Shown one piece after another: positions 22,195 through 44,700 of a DNA stretch of 59,160 bases. Below the pieces are notes generated by a model. It searched no databases and was not told where the DNA came from. It was given only the letters and a program-made list of their open reading frames with translations. The stretch lies in assembly GCF_014695575.1 (NCBI RefSeq), contig NZ_JACJOO010000049.1:1-59160 (forward strand), in the 5' to 3' direction. The DNA is from Leptolyngbya sp. FACHB-8 (GTDB lineage: Bacteria > Cyanobacteriota > Cyanobacteriia > Elainellales > Elainellaceae). Within the stretch, counting starts at the first letter, position 1. The number at the start of each line of letters is the position of its first letter. A program made the position numbers and the translations under genes.

Positions 22195-23187
22195 ATGAAT
22201 GGGGACGATCGCCCGAATTCACTGCAGGCGCGTGGTTTATCTCAGCTCCCCCAAACGTTTGCCCAAACAATTGCTTACGTTGAGGCGTTTGCTTTACAGC
22301 GCTTACGTGAAGAAGTTATTCAAAAAAAACTTTATTACCATACGGAAGACCATGTAAAGGGCGTTCGACGGCGATCGCATCAAATTCTGGATACCCTTTA
22401 TAACACTTCTGAGGCAGAAGCCACAACTCATACAACTCCATTAGATTTAGACCGCACAGGGTTATTGCTTGATCTCTGTGCTGCTGCTCACGATATGGTT
22501 CAATTATTTGAGCAGAATACCCAGAAAAATACGGCTCGGCGGCGTCTACCGGGCAGAAGCGAGGCCGCAACCCTTGGGCAACTCATGCCCTATATCCAAC
22601 AGATAAATCGATTAATAAAGCAGCACGATCCGAATAGTACAGCTACATTTACAGATGCGGATATTGCTGTCATCCAAGAAGCTATTAACGCAACAATTTG
22701 CATTTATGTACCCCTCGAAAATGCCATTCACCAACCACTACTTCACAGCCCTGACCATGTTCCATCGACAGTTGCTCAGATTCTTGCCTTAGCGGATTTA
22801 GGGGCACTAGGAATGGATGGAGTAGAGGCTTACTCTCAGGAAGGTAGCCTGTTATTTTTAGAGGAAAATCCTGATGTAGTGCCTTTTCTGCGCGATGGTA
22901 CGATTCATCAATTGGAAGTAAAAGATCCAGCCATTGCAGAAAATATCCGTCAACGTTTGTTGAAGCGTGCGCGCTTTCAAGTCAGTTTTGCAAAAAGCCG
23001 CTTAGCTCGTTTCAAACAGGAACTTCAAGGGTTTCCAAAAGATGTCATTCCTGTTTTAATTGAAAAGATATTTCGGTATTTAACACCCACGACGATTCAG
23101 GTGATTGAAGCTACCACTCCGACTCAGGATAAGACAGATTTGAACAGTCTGCTTAAATTTTTTAGGCTGGAGAACTATCTAACCTGA
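22195..23187 (+). CDS. HD-domain phosphohydrolase-like protein
   Basis: 330 aa. Motifs of the HD superfamily are visible in order: YYHTEDHV (about 47-54), AAAHDMVQ (His/Asp pair near 101-102) and LADLGALGMDG (Asp near 198). Known members are metal-dependent phosphohydrolases acting on nucleotides or second messengers, but the substrate is not indicated and it lacks the HD-GYP signature. It stands alone in its direction, 227 bp after the SufR-like gene. Ribosome-binding site weak (GAGAACGAG). Confidence 0.7.
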   Translation: MNGDDRPNSLQARGLSQLPQTFAQTIAYVEAFALQRLREEVIQKKLYYHTEDHVKGVRRRSHQILDTLYNTSEAEATTHTTPLDLDRTGLLLDLCAAAHDMVQLFEQNTQKNTARRRLPGRSEAATLGQLMPYIQQINRLIKQHDPNSTATFTDADIAVIQEAINATICIYVPLENAIHQPLLHSPDHVPSTVAQILALADLGALGMDGVEAYSQEGSLLFLEENPDVVPFLRDGTIHQLEVKDPAIAENIRQRLLKRARFQVSFAKSRLARFKQELQGFPKDVIPVLIEKIFRYLTPTTIQVIEATTPTQDKTDLNSLLKFFRLENYLT

Positions 23188-23600: not shown

Positions 23601-25829
23601 TTATACGGACTCGATTAAATGCTTTAATTCTTCCTCACGATGTTGAAGCCGCTCGGCCAACAAATTGACGATAAAACGGTGAATGTTGGAAGCAAGAACT
23701 GGGTCGGATGCTTCAATTTCTTCGAAGGTTTGAGCAGATAGAAAATAGAGTGAACTGGGTTTGTCAGCGACTACTGAAGCCATACGATCAGTCTGACGGT
23801 AAAGCCCCATTTCACCAATTGTGTTTCCAACCGTATAGGTGCGAAGGCGCTTAAACTGGCCGTCATTCAATTCCAGCACAACGCTAACCTGCCCTGATGC
23901 CACAAAATATAGCCCATCAAATGGATCGCCCTGGTAGAATAGATATTCATGCTCGGCTAGCTGGCGTAACTCTAGGCAGGCCATCAGACGGTTTACCTGC
24001 CTGGGATCAGAAAAATGGGTTTGCAGATGCGATGCCAGCGCTGTTTCGGGCGCAGGAATCGGATCAGGTCTGTAAGGCTGGTAATGCTTTAGAATCTGCT
24101 GCTCATACCATTCCAATGCCCGATCTAAGTCGGGAAACAAGTGGCAAAATGGATCGTTTGGTTCTAAGCACTCTCCTCGAAGTAGCCGTTGTTTAGCCTG
24201 AGGGTCCAAATTGCTATAGAGCAAATGAACTTGTTTCTGGTCTGCTACTTGTCTGAGTTTTGCAAAGCTGAGAACAGCGGAAGAATCCAGTCCACTCACC
24301 ATACGGAAGTCGAGAATCACGTAGCGCAGCGGAGTTAATTCGCTGTTGTTGAGGCGATCGCGCACCTGATTCAATAATTTATTCGCCGTGCCAAAAAAGA
24401 TTAGACCCTGTAATTCGACAATGTATGCCTGCTGCCCTTCTGCTTCCAGAATTTCCAACTCTTCCGAAGTTCGTAGTACGTTGCTATGGCGGTAAGTCCC
24501 ATAGCTCGCATGGCGCACAACGGTTAGCTGACTGTAATGAATTACAAACAGAACAATCGCCGCGACCAATCCGGCGCCGATTGCTTGGAGAAAGCCAACA
24601 CTAACGGTGATTAACACAATCAACACAATGATGGCGTAATCTGAGCGGGAGAACTTGAACCAGGCTTCGTAAAGCCATTCATTGAAGAACTCAATGGTGA
24701 CCAGTAACGGCATCCCAACCAGGATAAATTTGGGAAACAGCGCGAGGAGCGGTGCACCGCCTACCACCATGGCGAGACAGATCAGGGTCACCATCCATCC
24801 TGCCAGGCGGGTTTTTGCCCCTAATTGGTAAGCCAGTGTATTTTCCCCGGCACTTGGAAACCCGCCAATTCCCCCACCAAGGCCCGATAAAAACCAGGCA
24901 ATCCCGGAAGACTTTAACTCGCGATTCAAATCCAGATCCCGTGACGCAACCAGTTCAATGCCATTGCCGTGCAACAACAGCGCGATCGCCGATATTAGCC
25001 ATAGCGCTGCCATAGTTGGTATTTGTTGCAAGACAACGCTCCAGTCAGCCTGCTGAATTGCCTGTAACGTGGCAAAGTCATACAACCCTCCGGATGGAAT
25101 ATTGCCCAGCAACCAGCCCCGTTCTGTCGCTTCTGCCATGGATATTCCTGTTACGGACAGGACAATGTAGAAGAGGGCCGTGGCAGAGGCGATGATACCG
25201 GGATATATCAGGAAGTGGGTAATTCGCTGAGGCAGCATGAACATGACAGCGGCAAAGATTAGCCCCGGAAACCATTGCAAAAAGACGTTGGGTTGGAAGA
25301 AAGCGGCGATCGTGAATGGCTGTAAATCTAATCCTGAAACCGACTGAAAGGCTGCAATGAGTAGGAGCGCACCAATCCCGGCTAAGAAACCACCTACGAC
25401 GGGATAGGGAATGAACCGCACAAAGCTTCCTAATTTGAACCAACCCAAAGCCCAAAAAATTGCGGCTGTTATCAGACTGTTAAGGGCAAATGTTGCCACA
25501 ACCGTCATTAGCTTCTGCTCAACGGGGGCATCTGGCATGGCCGTAACAACCTGCCGTGCAATCAAGCTAAAAATGGGAACGGTGACTTCGGCAATTGTTA
25601 CCACCATGCCGGGGTAGGAACTCATAGCTGTGCCGAAGGCACTGATGATGACAGAACTGAAGAGTAACAACCCAATCCCAAATGTCAGTACAGGTGCCAG
25701 GTCTCCTGAGAAGATGACCGTTCCAAACGATACAGCACTTGTCACCGCTAACAGCCCCATAATGGCACCTGCAATGGCGTTGGAGATGACAGGGTTAGTA
25801 GTGGATTTGGCGTGTGCGATGGTAGTCAC
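23601..25829 (-). CDS. SulP-family anion transporter with STAS and cyclic-nucleotide-binding domains
   Basis: 742 aa. Residues about 15-420 are hydrophobic with 10-12 helices typical of SulP/SLC26 transporters. STAS follows at about 450-570 and a cNMP-binding domain at about 605-735. In the phosphate-binding cassette, Glu673 (ribose contact) and Arg682 (phosphate contact) keep the 9-residue spacing of CAP/PKA-type domains, so binding is plausible. Known SulP proteins move sulfate, bicarbonate or other anions; the substrate is not shown. The gene is divergent from the chemosensory operon whose last gene is an adenylate cyclase, and cAMP gating is a reasonable inference. The start is ATG 25829. 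Confidence 0.9.
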   Translation of the reverse strand: MTTIAHAKSTTNPVISNAIAGAIMGLLAVTSAVSFGTVIFSGDLAPVLTFGIGLLLFSSVIISAFGTAMSSYPGMVVTIAEVTVPIFSLIARQVVTAMPDAPVEQKLMTVVATFALNSLITAAIFWALGWFKLGSFVRFIPYPVVGGFLAGIGALLLIAAFQSVSGLDLQPFTIAAFFQPNVFLQWFPGLIFAAVMFMLPQRITHFLIYPGIIASATALFYIVLSVTGISMAEATERGWLLGNIPSGGLYDFATLQAIQQADWSVVLQQIPTMAALWLISAIALLLHGNGIELVASRDLDLNRELKSSGIAWFLSGLGGGIGGFPSAGENTLAYQLGAKTRLAGWMVTLICLAMVVGGAPLLALFPKFILVGMPLLVTIEFFNEWLYEAWFKFSRSDYAIIVLIVLITVSVGFLQAIGAGLVAAIVLFVIHYSQLTVVRHASYGTYRHSNVLRTSEELEILEAEGQQAYIVELQGLIFFGTANKLLNQVRDRLNNSELTPLRYVILDFRMVSGLDSSAVLSFAKLRQVADQKQVHLLYSNLDPQAKQRLLRGECLEPNDPFCHLFPDLDRALEWYEQQILKHYQPYRPDPIPAPETALASHLQTHFSDPRQVNRLMACLELRQLAEHEYLFYQGDPFDGLYFVASGQVSVVLELNDGQFKRLRTYTVGNTIGEMGLYRQTDRMASVVADKPSSLYFLSAQTFEEIEASDPVLASNIHRFIVNLLAERLQHREEELKHLIESV

Positions 25830-26177: not shown

Positions 26178-26768
26178 TTGTCGTCACTTGCACTACAGTC
26201 AGTTAGCTGCCTCAATTTTTTGGAGTTTATGCAGGTTAATACAGCCGCGCAGGCTACGTCTAAAACGGCGTTACTACTACTATTTCATATTGAAGAGAAT
26301 CTGTATGCGATTGATACGAGTAATGTTATTGAGATCGCACCAGTAGTCCTGCTCAGGAAGATTGAGGCAGCTTCAGAGTATATTGCAGGTGTTTTTAATT
26401 ATCACAATACCATTGTGCCGGTTATCGATCTTTGCCAACTTATTCGGGGGACATCCTGCAAAATTTCCTATAGCACGCGTTTAATTATGGTGAACTATGG
26501 GGCGAATTCTTGCCAGGGGGAACACTCACCGTATCAAAAACGCCAGTTGGGGCTTTTGGCAGAACGAGTAACAGAAACTTTAAAGGTGCCCATCAATACC
26601 CTGAAAAATGCGGAAAATATGAGTGATTCTTCCGTGATGGGAGAACTATTTATTGATGGTAAGGGCATTATTCAAAAGGTGAACTGGGAACAACTGGTTG
26701 CAGATGGCCTTGATCCAGCCTTATTTACTGAGAGAAGCGGGCAGGTGAACGGTGCAGGATGCAATTGA
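26178..26768 (+). CDS. cheW: CheW adaptor, first gene of Wsp-like operon (WspB position)
   Basis: 196 aa. A single CheW domain spans about 28-180 (LLLLFHIEENLYAIDTSNVIEI..., FNYHNTIVPVIDLCQL). CheW proteins couple chemoreceptors to the CheA kinase. TTG 26178 was chosen because GGGGAG (26165-26170) stands 7 nt before it. ATG 26229 is the alternative and has a GGAG only 3 nt before it. The 3' end overlaps cheR by 17 bp, so the two are translationally coupled. Confidence 0.88.
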   Translation: MSSLALQSVSCLNFLEFMQVNTAAQATSKTALLLLFHIEENLYAIDTSNVIEIAPVVLLRKIEAASEYIAGVFNYHNTIVPVIDLCQLIRGTSCKISYSTRLIMVNYGANSCQGEHSPYQKRQLGLLAERVTETLKVPINTLKNAENMSDSSVMGELFIDGKGIIQKVNWEQLVADGLDPALFTERSGQVNGAGCN

Positions 26769-28056
26769 AGTTATTCTCAGGGAGAAGTTGGGGCTAGATG
26801 CGAACAGTGTAGGTTCGCGAATCATTGCACGAGCTGTTGCCCAACGTCAGGCGGCTAATGGTGTGCGCGATCGCTCCCACTACCTGGCTCTTCTCCGCTC
26901 CGCTCCCGAGGAACTCAATCAATTAATTGAAGCGGTTGTAATTCCTGAAACCTGGTTCTTCCGAGACAAAGAACCTTTTGAGTATCTACGGTATTACGTG
27001 AAGGAACGAGCTATTCACGCCTGGGAACGGACCACTAAGCCTCTCTATGTTCTCAGCGTGCCTTGCTCTACGGGGGAAGAACCCTACTCGATCGCCATGA
27101 CTTTGTTAGACGCGGGGCTAACAACGGCTCAGTTTCAAATAGATGCCGTTGATGTCAGTCAGCGCGCCTTACAAAAAGCCGAGCAGGCGGTTTATGGAAA
27201 AAGCTCCTTTCGAGGTGTTACGGCCGAAGCGTTAGAGCGTTACGTTGAACCAACGGCTAGGGGACATCAAGTGCGCCCAATGGTGCGTAAATCCGTGAAT
27301 TTTATTCACGGCAACATTCTGCAACCTCATTTTCTTCGTAAGACGTATCACGTTATCTTTTGCCGCAATCTATTGATCTATTTAGATGGAGCAGCGCGCG
27401 ATCGCACGATGGCAACTCTCGATCATGCTCTGTTCCCCACAGGATTATTGTTTTTGGGAGCTGCCGAAACATCTCAAATTTCGGGTAAACAAAATTACAA
27501 GTCAATTGAGCATTCCTCTGCATTTGCGTACCAAAAACAATCACTTACCCTATTGGATAAAACAGATTCTAATAGTTCACCTGCACTGAATACAAATCAG
27601 TCATCTATCCGGCACCCATTGAACAAAGCAACTTTCCCAAAGACAAAATACCTTAATCCTCCATCCGAAAAAACATTCGATGCTCATCAGGGTTTAAGCA
27701 ATGGGTTTCTATCGAAAACTCAATCAGATCAAGGGCCACCCATTTTGTTGGAAAGGGCTAAGCAGCTTGCCGATCAGGGACAACTGACCCAAGCGGCTCA
27801 ACTTTGTGAATCCTATGTGCGGGCTAACCCAGCGGAGGCCTCGGCCTATTTGCTATTGGGTGAGATTTGTCAGGGACTGAGTCAAAATAAACAGGCAGAA
27901 ACCTATTTCCAAAAGGCTATTTATCTCGATCCATCTGCCTATGAAGCCTTGATACATCTTGCTTTATTGAAAGAGCAACAGGGTAATCAAGCTGCTTCGG
28001 AAAAACTAAGGAAACGGGCGCAACGGCTTGTAGAGCAAGGCTATCATTCATCTTAA
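26752..28056 (+). CDS. cheR: CheR methyltransferase with C-terminal TPR (WspC-like)
   Basis: 434 aa, GTG start. The N-terminal CheR domain (about 1-255) has the receptor-binding helices, the VIPETWFFRD segment and the SAM-binding motif SVPCSTGEEPYSIAM (about 100-114), then FCRNLLIYLD. A low-complexity linker (about 265-330) leads to TPR units (residues 335-430: AEASAYLLLGEICQGL..., YLDPSAYEALIHLALL). CheR-TPR fusions are typical of WspC. It should methylate glutamates of the chemoreceptor encoded 14 bp downstream. Confidence 0.92.
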   Translation: MQDAIEVILREKLGLDANSVGSRIIARAVAQRQAANGVRDRSHYLALLRSAPEELNQLIEAVVIPETWFFRDKEPFEYLRYYVKERAIHAWERTTKPLYVLSVPCSTGEEPYSIAMTLLDAGLTTAQFQIDAVDVSQRALQKAEQAVYGKSSFRGVTAEALERYVEPTARGHQVRPMVRKSVNFIHGNILQPHFLRKTYHVIFCRNLLIYLDGAARDRTMATLDHALFPTGLLFLGAAETSQISGKQNYKSIEHSSAFAYQKQSLTLLDKTDSNSSPALNTNQSSIRHPLNKATFPKTKYLNPPSEKTFDAHQGLSNGFLSKTQSDQGPPILLERAKQLADQGQLTQAAQLCESYVRANPAEASAYLLLGEICQGLSQNKQAETYFQKAIYLDPSAYEALIHLALLKEQQGNQAASEKLRKRAQRLVEQGYHSS

Positions 28057-28070
28057 ATAAATGATTCACT

Positions 28071-29678
28071 ATGGTTCAATCAATCTGGGATCGAATTACA
28101 AATCGCATTTTACTGGGGTACTCTATTCCGCTGTTAGCCCTATTGGGATTAAGTGCGATTGTTTATGATTCCACTACCCGTACTTTTCAGCTTCAGCAGG
28201 AAAGCGATCGCATCGAAACCCAAATTCGCAACGTTAATGGGTTGATTGATGGGCTCAATCGCATGATTGGTATTACCCGGACCTACTTGATTTTCCCAAG
28301 CGATCAGAGTGCTATAGATGCTTATTCCGATGCTCGCCAATCCTTTACAGAAAATGCCGAAAATGCGATAGCAACATCTGATGCGCAGACTCAGGCAGAC
28401 ATTAGCAACCTGATTGAATTAGGTGAAGAATACGATCGCACGCTGCAAACTATCTTTCGCCTGGTTGATCAAAACAACCTGGTTCAGGCCAAAGCGGATG
28501 TACGCCGGCCTCGTATTAGTGATGCGGTTGCCCAACGCGATCGCGTTGTTGGCGAACTAGAGAACCAGTTAAACCGCAATAATCAGGCTGTCCAAAATTC
28601 AAAAAACTTTCTGTTGCGTTTGATTGTTATCGGGACAGGACTGACGATTTTATTGACGCTGGCAGCAGGGCTACTCACGACCTTGCCGCTACGACGCCAG
28701 TTGCCCCCCATTGTCGATGCAGCAACGGCGATCGCTGATGGCGATTTAACCCAATCTATCCCGCCCACCAAAGATCCCACGGAAGTTGGGCAATTGCTAA
28801 GAGCCTTCCAGGAAATGGTTAAAAGCTTAAATGCTCTAATTGCTCAGGCTCAGCGCTCCGGAATTCAAATTAGTTCCTCGACGACACAAATTGCGGCGGC
28901 TGGTCGGCAATTGGAATCGACGGTGAATGAGCAAGTAGCTTCCATGCACGAGGTCAAAGCCACGTCTCGCCAAATTGCCTCTACTGCGGGTGAATTAGCC
29001 CAGGCGATGGATGAAGTGACGGATACGGCTCAGACAACCACCAGTGCTGCGGCTAACAGTCAGGAGAATCTCGATAAAATTCAAGGGGCTATGCAAAATT
29101 TGGTCGTAGCGACCCAATCGATCGCAGCAAAGCTCAAAGTGATTGATGAAAAAGCCAATAATATTAATAACGTTGTCACGACGATTACGAAAGTCGCAGA
29201 TCAAACGAATTTACTATCTCTGAATGCTGCCATTGAGGCCGAAAAGGCTGGTGAATATGGCGCTGGGTTTGCCGTCGTAGCGCGTGAAATTCGGCGGCTT
29301 GCGGATCAGGCCGCTGTTGCAACCCTGGAAATTGAACAGATGGTGAAAGCCATGCAAACCTCGGTGTCAACAGGGGTTGTAGAGATGGATCGGTTTAGTC
29401 GCGAGGTAACCCAATACGTTCAAGAAGTTGGCAATGTCAGTGAGCAGATTACCAGCTTTATTCAAGATGTACAGGGGCTTGCGCCACAGTTTGCTACTGT
29501 TAGCCAGCGGATGGATGAGCAATATCGGGGAGCCGAGCAAATTAGTATGGCGATCGCCCAACTCAGTGATGCGTCCCTCCAAACCATGCAATCCCTTCAA
29601 GAAACCAATAATGCGTTAACACAGTTGGATGATGCAGCGCAGGGGTTGCAGCAGGAGATTTCACAGTTCAAAGTGTAG
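28071..29678 (+). CDS. Methyl-accepting chemoreceptor (WspA-like)
   Basis: 535 aa. TM1 is at about 13-28, a roughly 155-residue helical periplasmic domain of the four-helix-bundle type follows, TM2 is at about 184-208, then HAMP (210-265) and a cytoplasmic signalling domain. The conserved hairpin tip reads QTNLLSLNAAIEAEKAGEYG (about 379-398) and the following FAVVAREIRRLADQ is canonical. Gln/Glu-rich methylation helices flank it. The ligand is unknown; WspA in Pseudomonas responds to surface contact. This is the only receptor in the operon and is presumably dedicated to it. Confidence 0.93.
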   Translation: MVQSIWDRITNRILLGYSIPLLALLGLSAIVYDSTTRTFQLQQESDRIETQIRNVNGLIDGLNRMIGITRTYLIFPSDQSAIDAYSDARQSFTENAENAIATSDAQTQADISNLIELGEEYDRTLQTIFRLVDQNNLVQAKADVRRPRISDAVAQRDRVVGELENQLNRNNQAVQNSKNFLLRLIVIGTGLTILLTLAAGLLTTLPLRRQLPPIVDAATAIADGDLTQSIPPTKDPTEVGQLLRAFQEMVKSLNALIAQAQRSGIQISSSTTQIAAAGRQLESTVNEQVASMHEVKATSRQIASTAGELAQAMDEVTDTAQTTTSAAANSQENLDKIQGAMQNLVVATQSIAAKLKVIDEKANNINNVVTTITKVADQTNLLSLNAAIEAEKAGEYGAGFAVVAREIRRLADQAAVATLEIEQMVKAMQTSVSTGVVEMDRFSREVTQYVQEVGNVSEQITSFIQDVQGLAPQFATVSQRMDEQYRGAEQISMAIAQLSDASLQTMQSLQETNNALTQLDDAAQGLQQEISQFKV

Positions 29679-29710
29679 CCATCGTAGTTTTACATGATGA
29701 AGTGTCAGTG

Positions 29711-30412
29711 ATGAATGCCGAGTATTGTTGGAGCGAGATTGGGATAGAGGGCGATCGATCGTGCGATCGCTTAGAGTCGGTAGGACACTGCATCAATTGC
29801 CCGGTCTACCATGAGGCAGGCCGCGGCCTCCTTAACCGCGAAATTCCACTCGACTATCTCCAGGAATGGACAGAAATTCTTGCTCAGCCGCCAGAAGCTC
29901 AAATGGGAACTCTGTCTACTGCCGTCAAGCAAGATTCTCTCAAAATTGGCCAGGGTACAACGCTATCGGCTATGGTTTTCCGGCTCGGCAGCGAGCGATT
30001 TGCGTTACCCGTTAGTATTCTGCAAGAAATTACCCGTCCTGTACCTATTCATACTCTTCCCCATCGCAGTGATGATTTGTTCCTGGGATTGGTGAATATT
30101 CGCGGTGAAATCCTGCCCTGTGCGTCTTTAAGCCAATTTATTGGGGTAGAAATGCCGATCGACCCCACCTATAGTCGAATTAACCTCAGGCGCATGATGG
30201 TGATTGGGCAGCAGGAGAGCCGCTGGGTGTTTCCGGTAGACGAGGTGCATCGAGTTTATCGCTTCCATCCAGATGAGCTTCAGAAACCTCCTGTTGTGAT
30301 TGCAAAAGCCCATCAATCCTATACCCGGGGGATCATTGACTGGCAAGACAAAAAAGTGAATTATCTGGATGCTGACCATTTGCTGAATACGCTCGATCGC
30401 CGCCTCTTGTAG
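29711..30412 (+). CDS. cheW: CheW adaptor with N-terminal cysteine motif (WspD-like)
   Basis: About 233 aa. The first 60 residues carry the signature YCWSEIGIEGDRSCDRL followed by HCINCPVYHEAGRGLLNRE, with four Cys (positions 5, 17, 28 and 31 from ATG 29711) that could bind metal or a cofactor. This N-terminus is characteristic of WspD-type CheW proteins. The CheW domain proper spans about 85-225. GTG 29702 is an alternative start. The gene lies between the receptor and the CheA kinase, 43 bp before the latter. It is the clearest marker that the operon is Wsp-type rather than flagellar or pilus-type. Confidence 0.88.
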   Translation: MNAEYCWSEIGIEGDRSCDRLESVGHCINCPVYHEAGRGLLNREIPLDYLQEWTEILAQPPEAQMGTLSTAVKQDSLKIGQGTTLSAMVFRLGSERFALPVSILQEITRPVPIHTLPHRSDDLFLGLVNIRGEILPCASLSQFIGVEMPIDPTYSRINLRRMMVIGQQESRWVFPVDEVHRVYRFHPDELQKPPVVIAKAHQSYTRGIIDWQDKKVNYLDADHLLNTLDRRLL

Positions 30413-30455
30413 TGTTTGAGCTGTTTCCTCCCTAATTCTATGTAACTCAACAAAA

Positions 30456-33284
30456 ATGCCCGATTATTCAATGCTGGATCTATTTCGTCAGGAGGTTATC
30501 GCTCAGGTGGAGAACCTGAAGCAACACTTGCTGATGTTCCAGCAACAGTCTCAATCGGCGCAAGATATTCAGGGATCGTTGCAGGCTTTGCATGCCCTTG
30601 ATGGGTTGGCCCAAGTTGTCAACGTAGAAGCTGCTGTTGTTGTCATTCAAGCTATTCAGTCAAGACTTAGAGCGGTTCAACAGGGTATAGATTTGAGCGC
30701 TGTTGAGGTTGATCGTCTGCTCGAAGCAGCTCATTGGCTTTTGGACATTAGCCTATTGGATGAACCCCAGTGGGAAAGTTGGTTGTCCGGTCATCGCGAG
30801 AGTATTGCCGCCATTCAATCTGTCTATCAACCAGTAACGTCTGAATCAGACTATTCAGATCCTTCCTCCGGTTCCGTGGCTGGCATTGCATCGTCCGAGG
30901 ATGAGAATCTTCCCGAAGTGGAAGATTCAGTAGCAGATTCCGTGCCGGAACCCCTTCAGGCTCACCTACCCCTGGTTGATCCTCAGATGATGGATTTGTT
31001 CCGTATGGAGGTGGAGGAACAGGCAAATATTTTGAACGATGGTTTGCTGACTCTGGAGACGCAACCCACAGCCACTCAACCCCTTGAAGCTCTCATGCGG
31101 GCAGCTCATTCGATTAAAGGGGCCGCACGGATTGTTGGACTGGATGCTGCTGTTAGCCTGGCGCATACTCTAGAAGATTGTTTTGTTGCAGCCCAGAACC
31201 GTACGCTTACATTGAGTGGCGATCTGATAGACCAACTACTGCGGGGCGTCGATTTATTGCAAGGCTTAAGCCAGGTGAGCGATCGCCATCTCTCCACCTG
31301 GTTAACTCAGCAAAATATCAATATTCTATCCGTACAGTCTGGTATTGAAGCTCTGCATCAATCCTCTGTTCATTCTGAGAACCCTGCATCCTTTGATGAA
31401 TCCGAGCACTCATTTAACCACCCGGCCGTGAAGGGTTCTTCCAATGGAATATCCGATGCTGCACATCAAATCCCGGTTGGTATTTCGAGCCAATCGTCTG
31501 GTGCTAATAGCAGTGTAAGCGAGCAACTTGCCTATGATGCCTCTAAGGGAGCTCAGCGGGTTGTGCGGGTTGGCGCAGATAACCTGAACCGGATTATGGG
31601 GCTGGCGGGAGAAGCACTGATTGAAGCCAATGCACTGCCTGCTTTTGCGGATGCCTTGATGCAGGTGCGATCGCATCAAATCGAGCTAGCTACCAGTCTG
31701 GAAGTACTGGAACAACAAGCTTTACCTCATTTTCGACAGGCTGACCAAGCCTTATTTGAAATGGTGCGTCGTCAGGAGCAGCAGTGTCGCGCTTTGTTGA
31801 GCGATCGCCTCTCGGATCTGGAAGAGTTTATTCGTCGTACCACTCATCTATCCGATCGCCTGTATCGAGAAGTTATTACCTCGCACATGCGGCCTTTTGA
31901 GGAAGGTGTGCAAAACTTCTCGCGCATGGTGCGTGATCTGGCTCGTAGTCTAGATAAACAAGCTCGATTAGAAATCGTTGGCAAGTCTACATCCGTCGAT
32001 CGCGACATTCTCAGCAAGCTAGAAGCCCCCATCACGCATATTCTTCGAAATGCAATTGGTCACGGTATTGAGTTACCCGAAGCCCGCATTGCCGCAGGGA
32101 AACCCCCGGAAGGAAGGATTCGCCTGGAAGCGGTCCATCGAGGCGGCATGCTAGCTATCACAGCCACAGACGATGGTGCGGGAATTGATATCCAACGGCT
32201 TCGAGAGCAAGCCATCGCCCGTCAGCTTACGACTCCTGAAATAGCCGAAAAACTGTCAGATGCGGAGCTTATGGAGTTCCTGTTTCTACCTGGATTCTCC
32301 CTCTCCCAACAAGTAACGGAACTGTCTGGGCGAGGTGTTGGGCTGGATATTGTGAAAAGCATGGCTCAGGAAGTGGGTGGTACTGTGCGGATGACATCTC
32401 AGCCAGGAAAGGGCACCAGTTTTCATTTTCAGTTGCCACTAACCCTCTCCGTCGTCCGGACACTACTTATAGAAGTTGGGGGAGAAATTTATGCTTTTCC
32501 CCTGTCGCGCATTGACCATATTGTCACGGTGAAGCAAGAAGATATTTTCACCGTTGAGAATCGACAATATTTTACCCTGGAGCACCAAAACGTTGGTCTT
32601 CTTCCCCTCTATCATGTTCTAGATTTGCCACCACCTACTGCCGTGCCGGATCCCTTATGGGTCGTGATTATCAGTGATCAATCGGCCACTTATGGTCTAG
32701 CGGTCGATCGTTGTCTGGGGGAACGTGAGTTAGTGGTGCGTCCCCTTGATCCACGCTTAGGCAACGTACAAGATGTGGCGGCGGCGGCACTGATGGGAGA
32801 TGGGTCGCTGATTTTGATTTTGGATGTGTCTGATTTGTTGCGATCGCTCAACACATTGCTGGTCGATGGGCGGCTAGCAAAGACAGGGGAAACGCGATCG
32901 CGCAAAGGTAACGATGCAAAACGGGTGCTGGTGGTGGATGACTCAATTACTGTACGGGAAATGGAACGTAAACTGTTACAGAATCATGGTTACGTGGTAG
33001 ATGTGGCTGTTGATGGGATGGAAGGCTGGAATGCTGTTCGCTCTTATCCCTATGATTTGGTCATTAGTGATATTGATATGCCCCGGATGAACGGTATTGA
33101 CTTAATTAAAGAAATCAAAAAACATTCGCGCTTACAGTCAATTCCCGTCATTGTGGTTTCCTATCGCGATCGCGAGGATGATCGCATTCAAGGACTGGAA
33201 GCAGGAGCCGACTACTATCTTACAAAGAATAGTTTTCACGATGACACGTTAATTCGAGCCGTTGCTGATTTAGTGGGTGAATAA
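30456..33284 (+). CDS. cheA: Hybrid CheA kinase with receiver (WspE-like)
   Basis: 942 aa. Two Hpt-like domains are visible: an N-terminal one (about 5-110) with His46 in ALHALDGLA, weakly conserved, and a canonical one (about 175-285) with His218 in AAHSIKGAA. CheA dimerisation and HATPase regions follow (LRNAIGHGIE where most CheA have D before H; DDGAGID; GRGVGLDIVK), then a CheW-like domain (about 665-795) and a receiver (815-940, Asp872, Lys near 926). In the Wsp pathway the kinase phosphorylates the CheB and the output regulator. The receiver may act as a phosphate sink. The duplicated Hpt is unusual, and the first copy could be decorative or a second phosphosite. Confidence 0.93.
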   Translation: MPDYSMLDLFRQEVIAQVENLKQHLLMFQQQSQSAQDIQGSLQALHALDGLAQVVNVEAAVVVIQAIQSRLRAVQQGIDLSAVEVDRLLEAAHWLLDISLLDEPQWESWLSGHRESIAAIQSVYQPVTSESDYSDPSSGSVAGIASSEDENLPEVEDSVADSVPEPLQAHLPLVDPQMMDLFRMEVEEQANILNDGLLTLETQPTATQPLEALMRAAHSIKGAARIVGLDAAVSLAHTLEDCFVAAQNRTLTLSGDLIDQLLRGVDLLQGLSQVSDRHLSTWLTQQNINILSVQSGIEALHQSSVHSENPASFDESEHSFNHPAVKGSSNGISDAAHQIPVGISSQSSGANSSVSEQLAYDASKGAQRVVRVGADNLNRIMGLAGEALIEANALPAFADALMQVRSHQIELATSLEVLEQQALPHFRQADQALFEMVRRQEQQCRALLSDRLSDLEEFIRRTTHLSDRLYREVITSHMRPFEEGVQNFSRMVRDLARSLDKQARLEIVGKSTSVDRDILSKLEAPITHILRNAIGHGIELPEARIAAGKPPEGRIRLEAVHRGGMLAITATDDGAGIDIQRLREQAIARQLTTPEIAEKLSDAELMEFLFLPGFSLSQQVTELSGRGVGLDIVKSMAQEVGGTVRMTSQPGKGTSFHFQLPLTLSVVRTLLIEVGGEIYAFPLSRIDHIVTVKQEDIFTVENRQYFTLEHQNVGLLPLYHVLDLPPPTAVPDPLWVVIISDQSATYGLAVDRCLGERELVVRPLDPRLGNVQDVAAAALMGDGSLILILDVSDLLRSLNTLLVDGRLAKTGETRSRKGNDAKRVLVVDDSITVREMERKLLQNHGYVVDVAVDGMEGWNAVRSYPYDLVISDIDMPRMNGIDLIKEIKKHSRLQSIPVIVVSYRDREDDRIQGLEAGADYYLTKNSFHDDTLIRAVADLVGE

Positions 33285-33289
33285 AATGA

Positions 33290-33378
33290 GTACCCTACAT
33301 TCCCACAATCCAAGATTTATGGTTGCTCAGCGACGGCAAAAGCAGAATTCTAAGTTTTGGGTTTGAACAGTGCAAGTT
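33290..33378. repeat. Family E-like element between cheA and cheB (degenerate)
   Basis: The 136-bp gap inside the operon ends with ttttgggtttgaacagtgca, close to the family E right flank at 21079-21101. The inner palindrome is poorly preserved (caatccaag... with ...ttttgg). It could weaken expression of the last two genes relative to the kinase. Confidence 0.4.
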
Positions 33379-33420
33379 ATGAGCTGGGCAGATGGACTTC
33401 CTGAACGATGGTAATGTGGC

Positions 33421-34548
33421 ATGAGAATTGCAATTGTCAATGACATGGTGCTAGCGATCGAAGCAATGCGACGGGTGTTATTAACCGTTGCTGAGCACCA
33501 GGTCGTTTGGGTGGCAAAAAACGGTATCGAGGCTGTTACCAAATGTGCTCAAGATACTCCTGATCTGATCCTGATGGATCTGATCATGCCTGAAATGGAT
33601 GGCATTGAAGCGACTCGACAGATCATGCAGAAGACTCCTTGCGCTATATTGGTGGTCACTGTCGATGTCAAACAAAATGCTGCCAAGGTGTTTGAAGCTA
33701 TGAGTTGCGGTGCGCTCGATGCGGTCAACACTCCCACTCTTGGAACTCAGGGCGACCCAGAATCGGCGCAAATCCTTCTCCACAAAATTGCTACCATCGA
33801 GAAACTTACCCGCCACTCGGTGTCTCCTTCCTCCTTCCCCCTTACGCATCACTTAGCGACACAACGTCGCACTCGATCACTCGATCGCTCCCCCAGTGAC
33901 TTAGCCAACCCTCTGAATTCCAAATCTCCACCCATCCATCCATCTACCGATCCGCCGATCCGCCCATCCACCCTTTTCTCCACCCCCCTCCTGGTCGCCA
34001 TTGGAGCCTCCACAGGTGGCCCTAAAGCCCTCGCCACAATTCTCGCCCCTCTTCCTGCGGACTTTGATGCGGCGATTGTTATCGTTCAGCACGTAGACGC
34101 TCAGTTTGCAGAAGGTTTGATTGAATGGCTGGGTCATCAAACGGCTCTCACCGTTAGAAAAGCGGTTACTGGCGATCGCCCCACCTCAGGAACGGCTCTT
34201 GTCGCCTGTAGCAACGACCATCTATGCCTACAGCGAAACCGTACCCTCGCTTATGTGAAAGAACCCAGCGACTATCCCTACCGCCCCTCCGTCGATGTTT
34301 TCTTCAAGAGCCTGGCCCGCCATTGGCGTCTGCAGGGAACGGCGATGCTGTTAACTGGAATGGGGCGGGATGGTGCAGAGGGGCTCAGCCAGCTTCGCCA
34401 ACGGGGTTGGTATACGATCGCCCAAGATAAGGTGAGTAGTGTCGTGTATGGAATGCCTAAAACAGCTGTTGAATTAGACGCAGCAGTGGCTGTTTGCAAT
34501 CCTAAGGAGATTGCCGAGTATTTGCTACACGTATCCTCCAAACTATGA
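33421..34548 (+). CDS. cheB: CheB methylesterase with receiver (WspF-like)
   Basis: 375 aa. The receiver (1-125) starts [16 protein letters not shown], with an Asn-Asp pair (7-8) and phosphoacceptor Asp53; the VNDM start is typical of WspF. An unusually long linker (about 130-188) includes the repetitive [15 protein letters not shown]. The methylesterase domain has the catalytic triad Ser197 (GASTGG), His224 and Asp317 (GMGRDG). It demethylates the receptor, giving adaptation; in Pseudomonas, loss of WspF locks the pathway on. The stop overlaps the next start by 4 bp (ATGA), so translation is coupled to the cyclase. Confidence 0.93.
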
Positions 34549-36029
34549 ACGACCCCATTACGGTCCTGCTGATTGACGATCAAACTATCATCGCGGAAGC
34601 GGTACGGAAAATGCTGGTTAACGAAAGGGATATCACCTTTCATTACTGTAATAATCCTCTGCAAACTATCAAAGTGGCAAAGTCTTGCCAACCCACGGTG
34701 ATTTTGCAAGACCTGATGATGCCGCAGATAGATGGGCTTTTATTGGTGCGTTTGTTGCGATCGCTTGATGCCCCTACCTATCAAGTTCCTCTAATCGTTT
34801 TGTCCAGTGAGGAAGACCCTGTTATCAAAGCGCAAGCTTTTGAATATGGGGCGAATGATTATTTAGTGAAACTGCCCGATCGCGTTGAGTTGCTGGCTCG
34901 AATTCGTTACCACTCCAAAGCCTATAATAACTTGCTCAAACGGCAGGAAGCTGAAGCTCTACTCCGCGAGGAAAATGAGCAACAGGCTCTCTACATTCAA
35001 CAGGTGAATAAAATTACAAATGCAGCTTCTGCTGTTGAGCAAAACATATTTGAAGACACCCAGCTAGACGATGTTTCTGCTCGTAAAGATGAACTTGGGC
35101 AACTGGCACGGGTGTTTACCCAGATGGTCAAAACGGTAAAAGTGCGCGAAGCAGAATTGGAGCGACTGAAAGATTCTCTGGCACGATTTTTCCCAGATGA
35201 ATATTTGCGATTTCTGCGTAAAGACAGCGTGATTGATGTGCAACTGGGGGATTTTGTTAGCAAAACCATGGCTGTTATGTTTAGCGATATTCGCTCATTT
35301 ACCACCATTTCTGAAGGGATGACACCTCGCGAAAACTTTAATTTTATCAATGCTTATCTAAAGCGAGTAAGCCCCGAAATTCGCAATCACTACGGCATTA
35401 TTGTGAAGTTCTTGGGAGATGGCATGATGGCGGTTTTCCCGGATGGTGCTGATGATGCGATTGCCGCAGGAATCGCCAAACAACAACGGGTGCAAGAATA
35501 CAATGATCAGCGTCAGGCAAAAGGTAAACAACCCATTCACGTCGGTATTGGTATTCATGTGGGCCCCATGATGCTGGGCATGGTTGGAGAAAACCACCGC
35601 ATTCAAGGCGATGCATTTTCAGATAATGTGAATGTGACAGCCCGCTTAGAGGGGTTGACCAAAGTGTACGGAAGCTCCATGCTGATTACCGGACAAACCG
35701 TCGATCACCTTAGCAATCCTGAGACCTACCAAATTCGCTTTTTGGCAAATGCCTTGGTGAAGGGACGAACAGAGGCAGTCGCCGTTTATGAAGTATTAGA
35801 TGCTGAAACTGAAACAATCCGCGAGTTGAAACAACAAACATTGCCTCACTTTGAACAGGGTATTTTGTATTATCGCCATCGCGTCTTTACAGAAGCTAAA
35901 GCTTGTTTTGAGAAAGTTTTATCAATTCATCCCACTGACCAAACGGCTCAGCTCTATTGCGAGCAAATCACAATGTTATTATCCGAAGGAATTCCTGAGA
36001 ACTGGCAGGAAGCATGGACATTTGGATAG
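34545..36029 (+). CDS. WspR-like receiver fused to class III adenylate cyclase
   Basis: 494 aa. The receiver (1-125; Asp56 in ILQDLMMP, Lys109 in NDYLVKLPD, then [13 protein letters not shown]) follows the WspR receiver pattern closely. A coiled-coil/HAMP-like linker (125-220) leads to a class III cyclase domain (about 235-405) where WspR would have GGDEF. Metal-binding Asp248 (FSDIRSF) and Asp292 (FLGDG) are present, as are Lys288 and Asp356, which read adenine, and Asn/Arg in NVNVTARLE. The predicted product is cAMP. The C-terminal 60 residues look helical (TPR-like). It is the terminal gene of the operon and so its likely output. Phosphorylation by the CheA-REC kinase is inferred from the Wsp analogy. 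Confidence 0.9.
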
Positions 36030-36352: not shown

Positions 36353-39300
36353 ATGAGACGCGATGCTGCCGGAAAGTTTGTGAACAACTGGAATTCCGAG
36401 ACAAAATATCGGGTGGGTGTATCACTCACCCGTACTGCCCAGCGATCGCTTGATCAGGAGGCCCAAAAACGGGGAATTTCTCGGTCTGAAGTGATTGAGC
36501 ACTTTGCTCGCAGTCTCGGTGCTGAACATTCTAATGATGCTGATGGGCTGTATTCCCAAATTGCGTTACTTCAACATCAAATTCTTGAGCAACAGCATGA
36601 AATCGCAGCTTTACGCAGTCAACAGCAACCATTAATGGCTCTACCAGACAATCCTTTGCTTGAAGCTGTTTTAGAACAGATGCCTGTGGGTGTCTTAATT
36701 GCCGATGCGAAGTCTGGCAAGCTAATGCTGGCGAATGAACAAGCTAAACAAATCACGGGGTACAGCTATAAAGAATTATTAGAGCTTGAAAGTGATGTTG
36801 CTACTGTTCCATTCGAAGCGTTTCACCCAGATGGAGAGATTTATACACCGGATGAGCATCCTTTGGTGCGATCGCTAAAAACCGGTGAGGTTATTACCGA
36901 TGAAGAGATGGAAATTTGCCACAGTGACGGTAGTCCTGTTTTCATCACCGTTAACTCGGTTCCCATCCTCGATCACCAGGGGCAAACTGTCGCAGCAGTA
37001 GCGGTCTTCCATGATGTGACCGAGCAGCGATCTATAGAACAAGTTTTACATGAAAATGACTTTCGGTTGCAGGCACTATTAAACGCAAATTTTATTGGCA
37101 TCATTATTGGTGATTTTCAAGGCAATATTTTGGAAGTCAATAATACCTGGCTCAATACTTTAGGGTATACCCGGGAAGAAGTTGTGTCGGGGGCCGTTAA
37201 TTTTCTTGAGATTACCCCACCTGAATTTCGGCATTTAGATCAGCAGGCGATGGCCGAAATGGAACAAGTGGGTTACCATGTACCATTTGAGAAAGAGTAC
37301 ATCCGTAAAGATGGTAGCCGCATTCCTGTTCTGATTGGAACTGCTTATTTGGGAGGCCCCGATGATTTAGGCGTGGGTTTCCTCATTGATCTCACTGAAC
37401 GCAAACGTCTGGAATCAGCGCTACAGCAGCGAGAGCAACACTACAAGATGGTGGCTGAAAATGCGCCAGACATTATTAGCCGTATTGATACAAAGTTTCG
37501 CCACGTATATGTTAGCCCCTCTGTAGAGAGAGTGACAGGCATTCCAGCCGATCAGTTTATGGGTAAAACCCATGCTGAATTAGGAATGCCCGAGCAGATC
37601 TACTGCCTCTGGCATGACAGTGTTCAGCAAGTATTTGATAGTGGACAAGAACGAACCATTGAATTTCAGTTTCCCACTCTTCAAGAAATACGGTGGTATC
37701 AAGCACGTATTGTTCCTGAATTCACCGACGATGGCTCTGTTGAAACAGTGTTAGGAATTGCTCGTGATGTGACAGATTATAAACAGGTTGAAGAAGCCTT
37801 ACGAGAAAGCGAAGAACGTTTGCGTCTGGCACTTACAGCTGCTCATATGATGGTGTGGGATATGGATTTGCAGAGCAATTGGATGGTTGTTTCTGCAAAT
37901 GCGCAACAGATCTGGGGCATACAAGAAGGTACAGGAGAAGATTTTGTTGCGGTGATCCATCCAGACGATCGCCTGCGGGTGTTACAAGCAGTCGAACGGG
38001 CCATGGCCGGAGGAGACACATCTTACTCGCAAGAATATCGAGTGATGAGCCCAGATGGTACTGTACGTTGGCTCAACAGCCAGGGGCGGATTTATCTGGA
38101 TGACATGGGGCGTGGAGTGCGAATGCTGGGCGTTTCGGTGGATGTAACGGAGCGTAAGCAGATTGAAGCAGAACGTGCTCAATTGCTAGAACGAGAACGT
38201 TTAGCAAGGCTAGAGGCAGAAAACGAACGCAAGCGATTATATGACATTCTGATGCAGTTCCCTGCCATGATTGGCATTGTTAAAGGGCCTGATCTGGTGT
38301 ATGAATTTGCTAATCCCACGTATCTGCAAATCACTGGTCAGACTTCTGACATGATTGGTAAGCCGATTCAGGAAGCTTTTCCAGATCTGGAAGGACCTAT
38401 TTATTTTGATGTGCTGAAGCAGGTCTATCAAACGGGAGAAACCTTTGTTCGAGAGGAATCACCGGTATGTTGGGATCGGAACGGTGATGGCGTGTTGGAA
38501 GAAGCATTTTTTACCTGCAATTTCCCAGCTTGGCGAGATGTTGAGGGAAACATTCAGGGTGTATTAATCTACAACTTTGAAGTTACAGCGCAAGTAAAAG
38601 CAAGGCAGCAAATTGAGCAATTATTAGAAGAACTTCAACGGAAAGAAAGACAGCAAAAGTTTTTAATTGAGTTGAATGATACGATGCGTGCCATTCAAGA
38701 CTCAAAAGAAATCATGTGGCAGGTCGTTTGTGCTACGGGAGAATACTTCAATGTCACCCGCTGTACTTATGGTGAAATTGATTCTACACAAGAATATGTG
38801 ATGGTCGATCGTGATTACTGCAATGGAGCTATCAGTATCGTTGGTAGCCATCATATGAATTCGTTTGGGCCTGATATCATCGCAGAATTGAAGCAAGGTA
38901 AAACTGTTGCTGTGGATGATGTGGATCAAGACCCTCGCACGGTCGGATCAGGGGCAGCGGCTTTTGATGCAATTCAAACAAAATCGCTATTGTGCGTTCC
39001 TTTGGTGAAAGCAGGAAAATTTGTTGCATTGATGGTATTGCACCACATGGCTGCTCGTCAGTGGACGGTAGAAGATGTCGTATTAATGGAACGCATTGCC
39101 GAGAAAACCTGGCTGGCAGTGGAGCGATCGCGCGTAGAGGAACAATTGCGCGAAAGTGAATCACGCTTGCAGCTAGCCCTGCGCATTGGACGCATGGGTA
39201 CCTGGGATTGGGACGTTCAAACGGGAACAACACGATGGTCAGAGGGATATTTCACGGTTCTTGGTCTGCAACCCAATGAATGTGAACCGAGTTATAAAAT

Positions 39301-41747: not shown

Positions 41748-44700
41748 TTAGCCAGGAGCTGAGATTACGCGATCGCGTCCTTGTTGTTTTGCTTGATAAA
41801 GTGCTTGATCTGCAACGGTGATCAATCGAGGAGGTGACGATTTTTCATGGGGTGTGACAGTCGCAATACCCAGACTCAGGCTGACTACCCCAATAGAAGA
41901 TTGTTGGTGCTTAAGCTGGAGTGCTTTCACCGCAGTACGAATGCGTTCAGCCACCTTAAATGCTCCCTCAGCTGTCGTATTCGACAGAATAATGGCGAAC
42001 TCTTCTCCCCCATACCGCGCAACGAAATCGTCTTCCCGATTAGCGGTGTGCTTGATCGCTGCGGCAACCTGCTGCAAGCACTCATCCCCAGCAGGGTGGC
42101 CATAGGTATCGTTGTAAAGTTTGAAGAAGTCGATGTCACATAAAATGAGAGATAACGGTGACCCGATCAGACTCATGCGCTGCCAGACTTGATCCAGGTG
42201 ATGATCAAAGTGGCGACGGTTGGCCACCTGGGTTAACCCATCCACCATTGCCAATCGTTGGACCTGTTGATATAACTCCGATTGTTGAATGGCGATCGCT
42301 ACCTGGGTTGCCAATTGATTGAGCAAGCTAATCTCCAGCTCTTTCCAGTGGCGGGGACCACTGCACTGGTGAGCGATCAGCAGACCCCACAGGTTATCGC
42401 CTTGCAGAATGGGAACCACCAGATTGGCACGAACCCCATGTTCGGCCAATAAGTTGATATGACACTCATGTAGACCCGCGTTGTAAATGTCTTCAATGGC
42501 TCGTACGCGTCCCTGTTGATACTGTGGCACATAAGCATTTCGAAAACAGGGTTCATCAATCACTGTTCTCAAAATCCTGGGATAACCTTCTGCCACAGAT
42601 TCCATTGTGACTACACCGCTCCAATCAGGTTTGAACCGAAAGACGATCACCCGATCTGTTTGTAAAAAATGCCGTACCTCATGCACAGTTGTATTCAAGA
42701 TTTCATCCAGATCCAGCGACTGGCGAATGCGCTGAGCGATCGCAGTGACTAATCTTTCTCGTTCTGCCTGCTGTTGCAGCAACGTTTCTGTCCGTTGGCG
42801 TTCAACCGCGTGGGAAATACTCCGGGCGATCGCTCCTAACTGCGCGATGATAGCCTGTGGTAGGGGTTGACGCAGAAATAGGGATAGTACACCAGTGGTT
42901 TCGTGATCGAGCACTAACGGATACCCCGTGAAGGCAACCAATTGCTCTTGTATTGCTGTGGGGCGATCGGATAGCGGCAGATGCTCCAGCAAACGATTGG
43001 TCTGGAAGGGTTGCCCCTGTTCCGCAATCCAGTCTGCTTTAAACAAACGAATCGAATCCAGAGCTGGTGTTCCATCACTGGCTTGTAGTTCCAACACATC
43101 TGTTGTAGGATGGCGCATCCAAAATCCAACAAATGCTGCATTCAAATGGTGAGTGAGCGTCGTTGCACAGGCTTGTAGTAACGTGAATATTGGCTCATTG
43201 CGATTTAGGATTTCTCCAATTTCCATGACCAATTGAGCTAACTGCATTTGCTCCGTTAGCGCTTCACGATATTGGTAAGAGATTGCCATTGCAGGTTGTG
43301 TGGCTGCTATTGCTGACTGTGGCAACAGTTCCTGTCGTTGTTGCTGGTCCAGTAGATGTCGTCGCAGTTCCAATTGGGTCATGACTTGCTCTGCTAACAC
43401 TCTGAGCGATTCCTGCTGCTCCGATGTCAAAATCCGTGGTGTAGAGTCTGCAACGCATAATGCCCCCAATATGAAACCCTCTGCATTCACTAAGGGGGCA
43501 CCCGCATAAAACCGCAGATGAGGTTTCTTTGTTACCACCGGGTAGTGCTTGAATCGTGGATCTACTTGTGTATCGGGTACAAGCAGCAGATCACGCTTCA
43601 GAATGGTATGGGCACAAAAAGCATCAGTACGAGCCGTTTCCGTGAGTTCTAAACCTTGAATAGATTTGAACCATTGGCGTTGTTCATCCACGAGGCTAAT
43701 CCAGGCCATGGGGGTCTGGCATATCTGTGCAGCCAGGTGGGTCAGTTGGTTAAACGTGGCTTCCGGTGGTGTATCCAGTACCTGATATCTAGATAGAACA
43801 GCCAATCGCTGAGCTTCATTAGGGGGAATGGGAAAAGTTGCTGTCACGGGTTGAGTGGGTCGGGGTAACTCCATCTGGGATGGTGCTGCTTTCTTATAAA
43901 GCAGCTGCGTTGCCCCATCCGTTGTCAACGGTTTGCTGAATAAATAACCCTGCACGACATCACAGTGATTTTGCCGTAAAAATTCTAGTTGTTCTACCGT
44001 CTCAACGCCTTCAGCAATGAGTTTCAGGTGCAGCCCATGTCCAAGGGCAATGACCGATGAAATGATTGCTCGATTACTGGTGTGTTTGTTTAAATTCTGA
44101 ATGAAGGACTGATCAATCTTAAGTGTATTAACTGGTAGATGCATCAACGCACTGAGCGATGAATATCCTGTACCAAAATCATCCATGGCAATGTGAATGC
44201 CCAATCGCTGCAAGTCCCGCAAAATTGCCACTGCAAGCTCTACATCTTGCATGATCAAACTTTCAGTGATTTCTAATTCAAGATAGTGCGGCTCCAACCC
44301 AGTTTCTTGTAGAGTTCTGGCGATTGTTTGCACTAAATTGGGTTGCTGGAATTGACGTACTGATAGATTGACCGAAATGCGTAAGGGGGGAAGCCCCGCC
44401 TCTTGCCATTGACGATTTTGTGTACAAGCAGTGCGTAAAACCCATTCGCCAATGTCACAAATTAAGCCCGTTTCTTCAGCAAATGGGATAAACTGCGTTG
44501 GCGGAATCATTCCCATTTCAGGATGTTGCCACCGGAGTAGTGCTTCCATTCCCACGACTTTTCCGGCTTTCAAGTCAATTTGGGGTTGGTAATGCAACAA
44601 CAATTCCTGCCGACCCAGGGCTTTATAAAGATGATTGCCTAGCAATAAGCCTTCGAGCGATCGCCGATTCATCGTCGGTGTATAGAGCAGATAACTGTTT

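Follow-up and report, generated by a model that had tools for sequence, protein, structure and literature searches.

The DNA analysed here, called the window throughout, is the whole 59,160-nt stretch of contig NZ_JACJOO010000049.1 (assembly GCF_014695575.1) from Leptolyngbya sp. FACHB-8. It contains an operon of seven plus-strand open reading frames (ORFs; 26229-36029) that encode, in order, CheW, CheR-TPR, a methyl-accepting chemotaxis protein (MCP), a WspD-type CheW, CheA-REC, CheB and a receiver-cyclase, as determined from the ORF list and Pfam matches. Judged from its sequence, the operon is real, conserved and Wsp-like, with a predicted adenylate cyclase as its output. The gene set, the identity of the receiver, the exchange of the output, the intact catalytic residues and the nearby genes for cyclic-nucleotide-binding (cNMP) proteins are all established at that level. 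The genes and the two domains of the output regulator are as follows.

26229..26768, plus strand: WspB-type CheW, 179 aa (CheW Pfam match, 2.2e-19; 37% identity to Azoarcus WspB)
26752..28056, plus strand: WspC-type CheR methyltransferase with TPR (CheR, 5.1e-44; 38% to Azoarcus CheR)
28071..29678, plus strand: WspA-type chemoreceptor; helical sensor at the N-terminus, then HAMP and the MCP signalling domain (MCPsignal, 2.2e-30; HAMP, 9e-10)
29702..30412, plus strand: WspD-type CheW with the N-terminal CW..IG...C..CP motif (CheW, 1.2e-24; 36% to Azoarcus WspD)
30456..33284, plus strand: WspE-type CheA-REC kinase carrying an additional Hpt, altered in sequence, at its N-terminus (Hpt, HATPase_c, CheW, REC; 46% to Azoarcus WspE)
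33421..34548, plus strand: WspF-type CheB methylesterase (REC-CheB) with a VNDM receiver start (CheB, 2.3e-56; 49% to Azoarcus WspF)
34545..36029, plus strand: output regulator with a WspR-type receiver, HAMP-like stalk, predicted class III adenylate cyclase domain and TPR-like tail
34545..34919, plus strand: WspR-type receiver domain, residues 1-125, phospho-acceptor D56 (PDB 3i5a, 1e-41; 3bre, 2e-41; tree)
35160..35819, plus strand: class III cyclase homology domain, residues 206-425 (Guanylate_cyc, 5.9e-19; residue conservation)

All seven consecutive genes and their domains had been described in a first-pass annotation of the window and were found to be present, as were the two gene overlaps noted there (17 bp, 26752-26768; 4 bp, 34545-34548). 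A start of the first gene at the ATG at 26229 (179 aa) is more probable than one at the TTG at 26178. The TPR matches of the CheR-TPR product were slightly below the Pfam cut-offs. The HAMP match of the output regulator (21.6 bits) was also below the cut-off, and the TPR of this protein was matched by Pfam in the orthologue L156 but not in the window protein. Promoter and terminator scans gave matches at chance level only.

Gene-by-gene correspondence with the Wsp operon

All seven products paired one to one with those of an Azoarcus wsp operon that has a GGDEF output. Identities ranged from 36 to 60%, with 44% for the MCP (residues 193-535 only), 60% for the receiver and the values listed above for the other products. 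The gene order is A-B-C-D-E-F-R in Azoarcus, where the MCP gene comes first, whereas it is B-C-A-D-E-F-R in the window, where the MCP gene comes third. The MCP, two CheW proteins, CheR-TPR, CheA-REC and CheB expected of a Wsp system are found in one cluster, together with the WspD motif and a WspR-type receiver. The N-terminal mark of WspD, picked out in the first pass, reads CWSEIG...CINCPV in the window and matches CWNRIG...CRNCPV of Azoarcus. The gene-by-gene match, this motif and the receiver bear out the earlier assignment of the operon to the Wsp type. A GGDEF diguanylate cyclase, which also belongs to the definition of Wsp, is replaced in the window by an output matching Guanylate_cyc, and we therefore classify the operon as Wsp-like rather than as canonical Wsp.

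The VNDM start of CheB had been proposed as a mark of WspF. The sequence MRIAIVNDM is present, but its fourth letter (M of VNDM) is not diagnostic, because VNDM accounted for only 15 of the 43 VNDx starts found in 50 wspF-like ORFs of the fetched loci, and Azoarcus WspF has VNDL. The extra N-terminal Hpt of WspE (30471-30725, plus strand) keeps its His, with the HxxKG motif altered to HALDG; several cyclase-type relatives have similarly altered copies, e.g. HSIWG or HAIQG.

Cyanobacteria possess several Che-like clusters that serve pilus-driven phototaxis, and the window genome gave 13 Hpt matches, as might be expected if the operon were an ordinary motility or phototaxis (Pil-like) cluster whose likeness to Wsp is superficial. 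The gene-by-gene match to proteobacterial wsp, the WspD motif and the similarity of the receiver to WspR (E = 1e-41) argue against this explanation, which is already disfavoured and which we regard as highly improbable. Among the receiver-cyclase loci of named genomes (L069-L095, some of them ended by contig edges), wspF was located at most 250 bp upstream in 24 of 27; L070 and L079 had no wspF within that distance and L095 has no upstream DNA. Calothrix sp. PCC 7103 and Phormidesmis priestleyi ULC007 are among the strains that carry the system. Given this frequency and the receiver E-value, the pairing of the receiver-cyclase with Wsp genes is not due to chance.

The output regulator and its relatives

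The closest PDB matches of the receiver were WspR of P. syringae (3i5a) and P. aeruginosa (3bre), followed by PleD at 7e-15, and a Foldseek search with a model of the output protein ranked the same WspR entries at the top. In a 64-row tree, 57 WspR-type receivers were split from seven others with support of 100/98. These results uphold the first-pass identification of the receiver as WspR-type. A grouping with CheY/CyaC-type receivers, which had been suggested as a check, was not seen in that the tree sets the receiver apart from the seven others, although named CyaC sequences were not included. The outgroup branches of the tree are very long, row L073 was shortened, one of the seven outgroup rows is wrongly labelled as a histidine kinase, and the order of output types inside the WspR-type clade is not resolved. 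Residues D11, D12, D56 and K109 of the receiver were invariant in a 29-row alignment.

Two candidate explanations were rejected. A CyaC-like receiver origin was checked at the loci of 8 of the 19 cyclase matches in the window genome, none of which showed a similar receiver; named CyaC sequences were outside this test. For a second, GGDEF-bearing WspR in the same genome, a single receiver match was obtained at 1e-15 among the best 10 of 222 candidates; the genome contains 31 GGDEF matches.

In the cyclase domain, D248, K288, D292, D356 and R367 were present in all 34 aligned rows and N363 in 33. D248 and D292 are metal-binding residues, and K288 and D356 are of the adenine type; D356 aligned with the place of a Thr in 5x4t. 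The two metal-binding Asp residues and the Lys/Asp pair are thus as first described, and they support the view that the domain has adenylate cyclase-type residues. Among solved domains, the closest were 6fht, in which the cyclase belongs to a phytochrome chimera, and 2w01, which we take to be the guanylyl cyclase Cya2.

Cyanobacteria have guanylyl cyclases, and specificity deduced from residues is predictive in nature, so that the domain might instead make cGMP; it might also run independently of the Wsp kinase with the receiver as a remnant, as the loci without wspF beside the gene (L070, L079 and L183) could suggest. However, every one of the 34 rows has K288 and D356, at whose places 2w01 carries E and G, and residues D11, D12, D56 and K109 do not vary in the receiver. 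These observations make the alternative unlikely, and we continue with the predicted Wsp-controlled adenylate cyclase.

Residues 179-493 of the output regulator were 56% identical to a 726-aa dCache_1-HAMP-cyclase protein encoded in the same genome. This relationship suggests that the receiver took the place of an extracellular sensor ahead of HAMP, which is consistent with the earlier proposal that the output domain was exchanged relative to WspR.

To place this exchange in context, 386 cyanobacterial genomes were surveyed, with the best 7-10 candidates per genome scored in the receiver and WspD searches (for the receiver, the best 10 at a threshold of 1e-15). The receiver matches split cleanly into 25 at 57-100% identity, found in 23 genomes, and six at 31-36%, which were left out of the counts. 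The outputs attached to the 25 receivers were a window-type cyclase in nine (four assigned by Pfam and five by BLAST), a second cyclase type in four, a histidine kinase in seven, a hybrid kinase in one and SpoIIE/PP2C in four; GGDEF was found in none of these 25. Outside cyanobacteria, GGDEF was found in 10 of 11 fetched proteins with WspR-type receivers (from Pfam matches in L146 and L147, from the motif in eight encoded on plasmids), and the eleventh, L148, had PP2C. The second cyclase type carries an HNOBA-like helix, with no HNOBA match at 0.001 in L202. In a cyclase tree thinned beforehand to 82 of 123 rows, the window included, the three rows of the second type that it contained were separated from the window type by a branch with support of 100 (SH-like approximate likelihood ratio test only). 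Because of this branch, cyclases were probably grafted onto WspR-type receivers at least twice.

WspD-type CheW was present in 28 of the 386 genomes (matches of at least 159 bits; the next was 52 bits), including all 23 with a WspR-type receiver, and no such receiver was found among the best candidates of the 358 genomes without WspD (Fisher 1.6e-32, uncorrected for kinship). In G005 and G023 the cyclase gene has no adjacent wspF, and matches to wspD and wspF-like sequences are grouped at another site of the genome; the wspF match of G023 contains stop codons. The same-genus G001 gave no wspD match at 1e-20, and its listed receiver-cyclase matches cover the cyclase module only. Several variant loci were also observed. 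The Wsp-type operons of L149, L150 and L151 (genomes G058, G297 and G304) have two MCP genes each. A 256-aa WspR-type receiver with a stalk and no output domain (L180:11183-11953, minus strand) adjoins a wspE piece and is apparently decayed. L074, a contig labelled as a metagenome-assembled genome of Tatlockia (Legionellaceae), carries a cyanobacterial-type wspF piece and a receiver-cyclase (74% identity) and is probably misbinned.

Neighbouring genes and the receptor sensor

Two genes upstream of the operon have recurring relatives near similar operons.

23601..25829, minus strand: SulP-STAS-cNMP_binding transporter, divergent neighbour, candidate cyclic AMP (cAMP) effector (Sulfate_transp, 1.6e-28; STAS; cNMP_binding, 3.3e-19)
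22195..23187, plus strand: HD-like protein, recurring neighbour, candidate phosphohydrolase (homologues near operon; invariant H49/H53, H99-D100, D201)

Relatives of the SulP gene were found beside the operon in L071/L184 (one genome), as a STAS-cNMP piece in L073, and as SulP pieces at the edge of the stretch in L075 and L077 (the former by BLAST only). An MscS-type channel with a C-terminal cNMP domain is encoded ahead of wspB in Phormidesmis priestleyi BC1401 (L076), L075, L077 and L085 (Pfam). MscS-cNMP genes also occur near the cyclase in L164, beside an HD-like gene, and in L183, with no adjacent wsp gene, and in L158 two cNMP stretches belong to a soluble protein. The phosphate-binding segments of the cNMP domains retain Glu and Arg.

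In total, cNMP-binding genes were present in 9 of 33 distinct cyclase-type loci (window excluded), 0 of 29 other Wsp loci and 0 of 51 other cyclase loci (Fisher 0.0024 and 1e-4, respectively, uncorrected for kinship). Of the nine loci, six had MscS-type channels, two SulP-type transporters and one a soluble protein. The 29 include L153, whose genome has a window-type cyclase on another contig. Because the first cNMP profile was built from domains of the tested loci themselves, the count was repeated with an independent profile of 11 other cNMP domains of the window genome (4 of the 15 stretches fetched for it gave no usable domain), and the same 9, 0 and 0 were obtained. At the density of the window genome, 17 domains in 6.9 Mb, about 1.4 would be expected in the 33 loci, and mean locus lengths were alike (16.8 kb for cyclase-type, 16.3 kb for other Wsp and 15.2 kb for other cyclase loci). 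On this sequence evidence, the neighbouring cNMP-binding transport proteins are candidates for a more specific target of the pathway than motility, which the first-pass annotation had named.

The metal ligands of the HD type (H49, H53, H99-D100 and D201) were invariant in the 10 HD-like sequences compared, and a weak HD Pfam match was obtained in three members, with none in the window protein. Relatives near the operon were found in L073, L083, L084, L086, L088, L090, L160 and L164, and an incomplete one in L161. The gene was present in 8 of the 386 genomes, five of them with wspD (Fisher 6.8e-5). In G111, it and the cyclase gene are about 9 kb apart. Of the three genomes with the HD-like gene and no wspD, G253 encodes a GAF-PAS cyclase at a distance of about 0.9 kb, and no cyclase similar to that of the window was found in the fetched stretches of G346 and G117. 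In Adonisia turfae, the HD-like gene comes immediately after a similar cyclase that lacks a receiver (L096:9824-12151, plus strand), and no Wsp gene was recognised in that stretch. The ORF at 22195-23187 was rejected as a known phosphodiesterase, with no match to one in Pfam or PDB; that its product might hydrolyse cAMP is a guess.

The first ~190 residues of the MCP gave no BLAST alignment with Azoarcus WspA, and the window receptor has no 4HB_MCP_1 Pfam match, whereas those of Azoarcus and Anabaena (L081) have one. The receptors of L071, L075, L085 and L089 aligned with it over nearly the whole length. Other cyclase-type receptors aligned partly: the alignment began near residue 255 for those of 528-532 aa and near residues 207-210 for several of 619-622 aa. 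Because the sensor parts differ from Azoarcus WspA and vary among relatives, the term 'surface sensing' was not carried over. The pathway may operate as proposed with a stimulus other than surface contact, such as a small ligand or the osmotic or ion state, and with cAMP adjusting membrane transport. The unalignable sensor and the neighbouring SulP transporters and MscS-type channels would suit this possibility. An AlphaFold2 (AF2) model of the MCP from an 18-sequence alignment (mean predicted local distance difference test score, pLDDT, 59.8, with the sensor part better) suggests a helical bundle with weak Foldseek matches to helical sensor domains, so that a fold related to that of WspA is conceivable. 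We give this alternative stimulus serious weight, somewhat short of an even chance.

Other features of the window include a glutamine riboswitch (RF01739, 12563-12635, plus strand; 50.1 bits, cut-off 35). Close downstream of the operon is a 1600-aa open frame with two GGDEF domains (41769-45167, minus strand), and between them is a 1760-aa PAS/GAF hybrid histidine kinase (36353-41635). Cyclic di-GMP (c-di-GMP) signalling may sit beside the cAMP operon.

Proposed pathway and comparison with known systems

The operon probably encodes a Wsp-type chemosensory pathway, of the alternative cellular function (ACF) class, whose final component is an adenylate cyclase. For its phosphotransfer, activation, product and effectors, we infer the following course. 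Methylation by CheR-TPR and demethylation by CheB would tune the membrane receptor, which would control CheA-REC via the two CheW adaptors. CheA would phosphorylate D56 of the WspR-type receiver, and the receiver dimer would shift the coiled-coil/HAMP-like stalk so that the cyclase dimer is aligned to make cAMP from ATP. The cAMP so formed would act on cNMP-binding proteins, among which the divergent SulP-STAS-cNMP transporter in the window and MscS-cNMP channels in relatives are plausible targets.

Several observations weigh against this pathway. The cyclase domain was poorly modelled by AF2 (pLDDT <50 for residues 207-299 and 341-358), and no argument was therefore drawn from the model. Class III cyclase domains gave 19 matches in the window genome, so that cAMP made by this cyclase may not be separable from that of others. 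Five wspD-bearing genomes (G058, G297, G304, G163 and G320) gave no WspR-type receiver at 1e-15 among their best candidates. No cNMP gene was found in 24 of the 33 cyclase-type loci, partly as the stretches end near the operon, and the cNMP association is not corrected for relatedness; because the loci are related, the independent events are fewer than those counted.

A more far-reaching and tentative idea, which we consider doubtful, is that cyanobacterial Wsp was rewired as a self-contained cAMP circuit for membrane transport. Such a circuit would consist of the array, the receiver-adenylate cyclase, a local effector in the form of a cyclic-nucleotide-gated MscS-type channel or a SulP transporter, and perhaps a cAMP-removing HD-family enzyme. 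The WspR receiver would serve in it as an exchangeable plug, to which cyclases of two distinct types, kinases and PP2C phosphatases were joined. If the proposed circuit operates, a chemosensory receiver can change its second messenger through domain exchange. Genome-linked candidates would then also be available, both for cyclic-nucleotide-gated MscS channels and for SulP transporters, alongside the cyclase that would control them, and what such channels do could be tested directly in a cyanobacterium.

The first-pass remark that no described Wsp pathway with this output was known is not borne out. For the orthologous cassette of P. priestleyi BC1401, the text of PMC4971617 (2016) reports wspB-C-A-D-E-F and, next in line where WspR would stand, a class 3 adenylate cyclase, with a cyclic nucleotide binding gene upstream. 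Its contig Ga0079976_1038 (L076) has the same gene order as the window and an output protein 74% identical to that of the window; the upstream gene is MscS plus cNMP (Pfam), whereas the window has the divergent SulP-STAS-cNMP gene. The main text of PMC4971617 leaves the regulators of the cassette unclear and does not contain the word 'cAMP', and no functional follow-up was found among the titles and abstract beginnings listed, at most 8-20 at a time, from one open library. The arrangement with a cyclase in the place of WspR is thus already in print, and its mechanism and effectors are testable; new here are the output survey of the 25 cyanobacterial WspR-type receivers and the cNMP-gene neighbourhood evidence.

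Like the ACF-class clusters surveyed in PMC3447774 (2012), the window combines a CheR-TPR gene with a multidomain response regulator. The available text of that survey names mononucleotidyl cyclases among the response-regulator outputs of CheR-TPR clusters and does not single out an operon of the window type. Pseudomonas Pil-Chp with CyaB is likewise a chemosensory system regulating cAMP, according to the title of Fulcher 2010 in the reference list of PMC10519157, but CyaB is a separate protein, whereas the window cyclase is fused to its receiver. With Pseudomonas Wsp (WspA-F and WspR), the window operon shares the component set (compared via the Azoarcus operon), the WspD motif and the WspR-type receiver; the Pseudomonas pathway ends in GGDEF and c-di-GMP, whereas that of the window ends in a class III cyclase.

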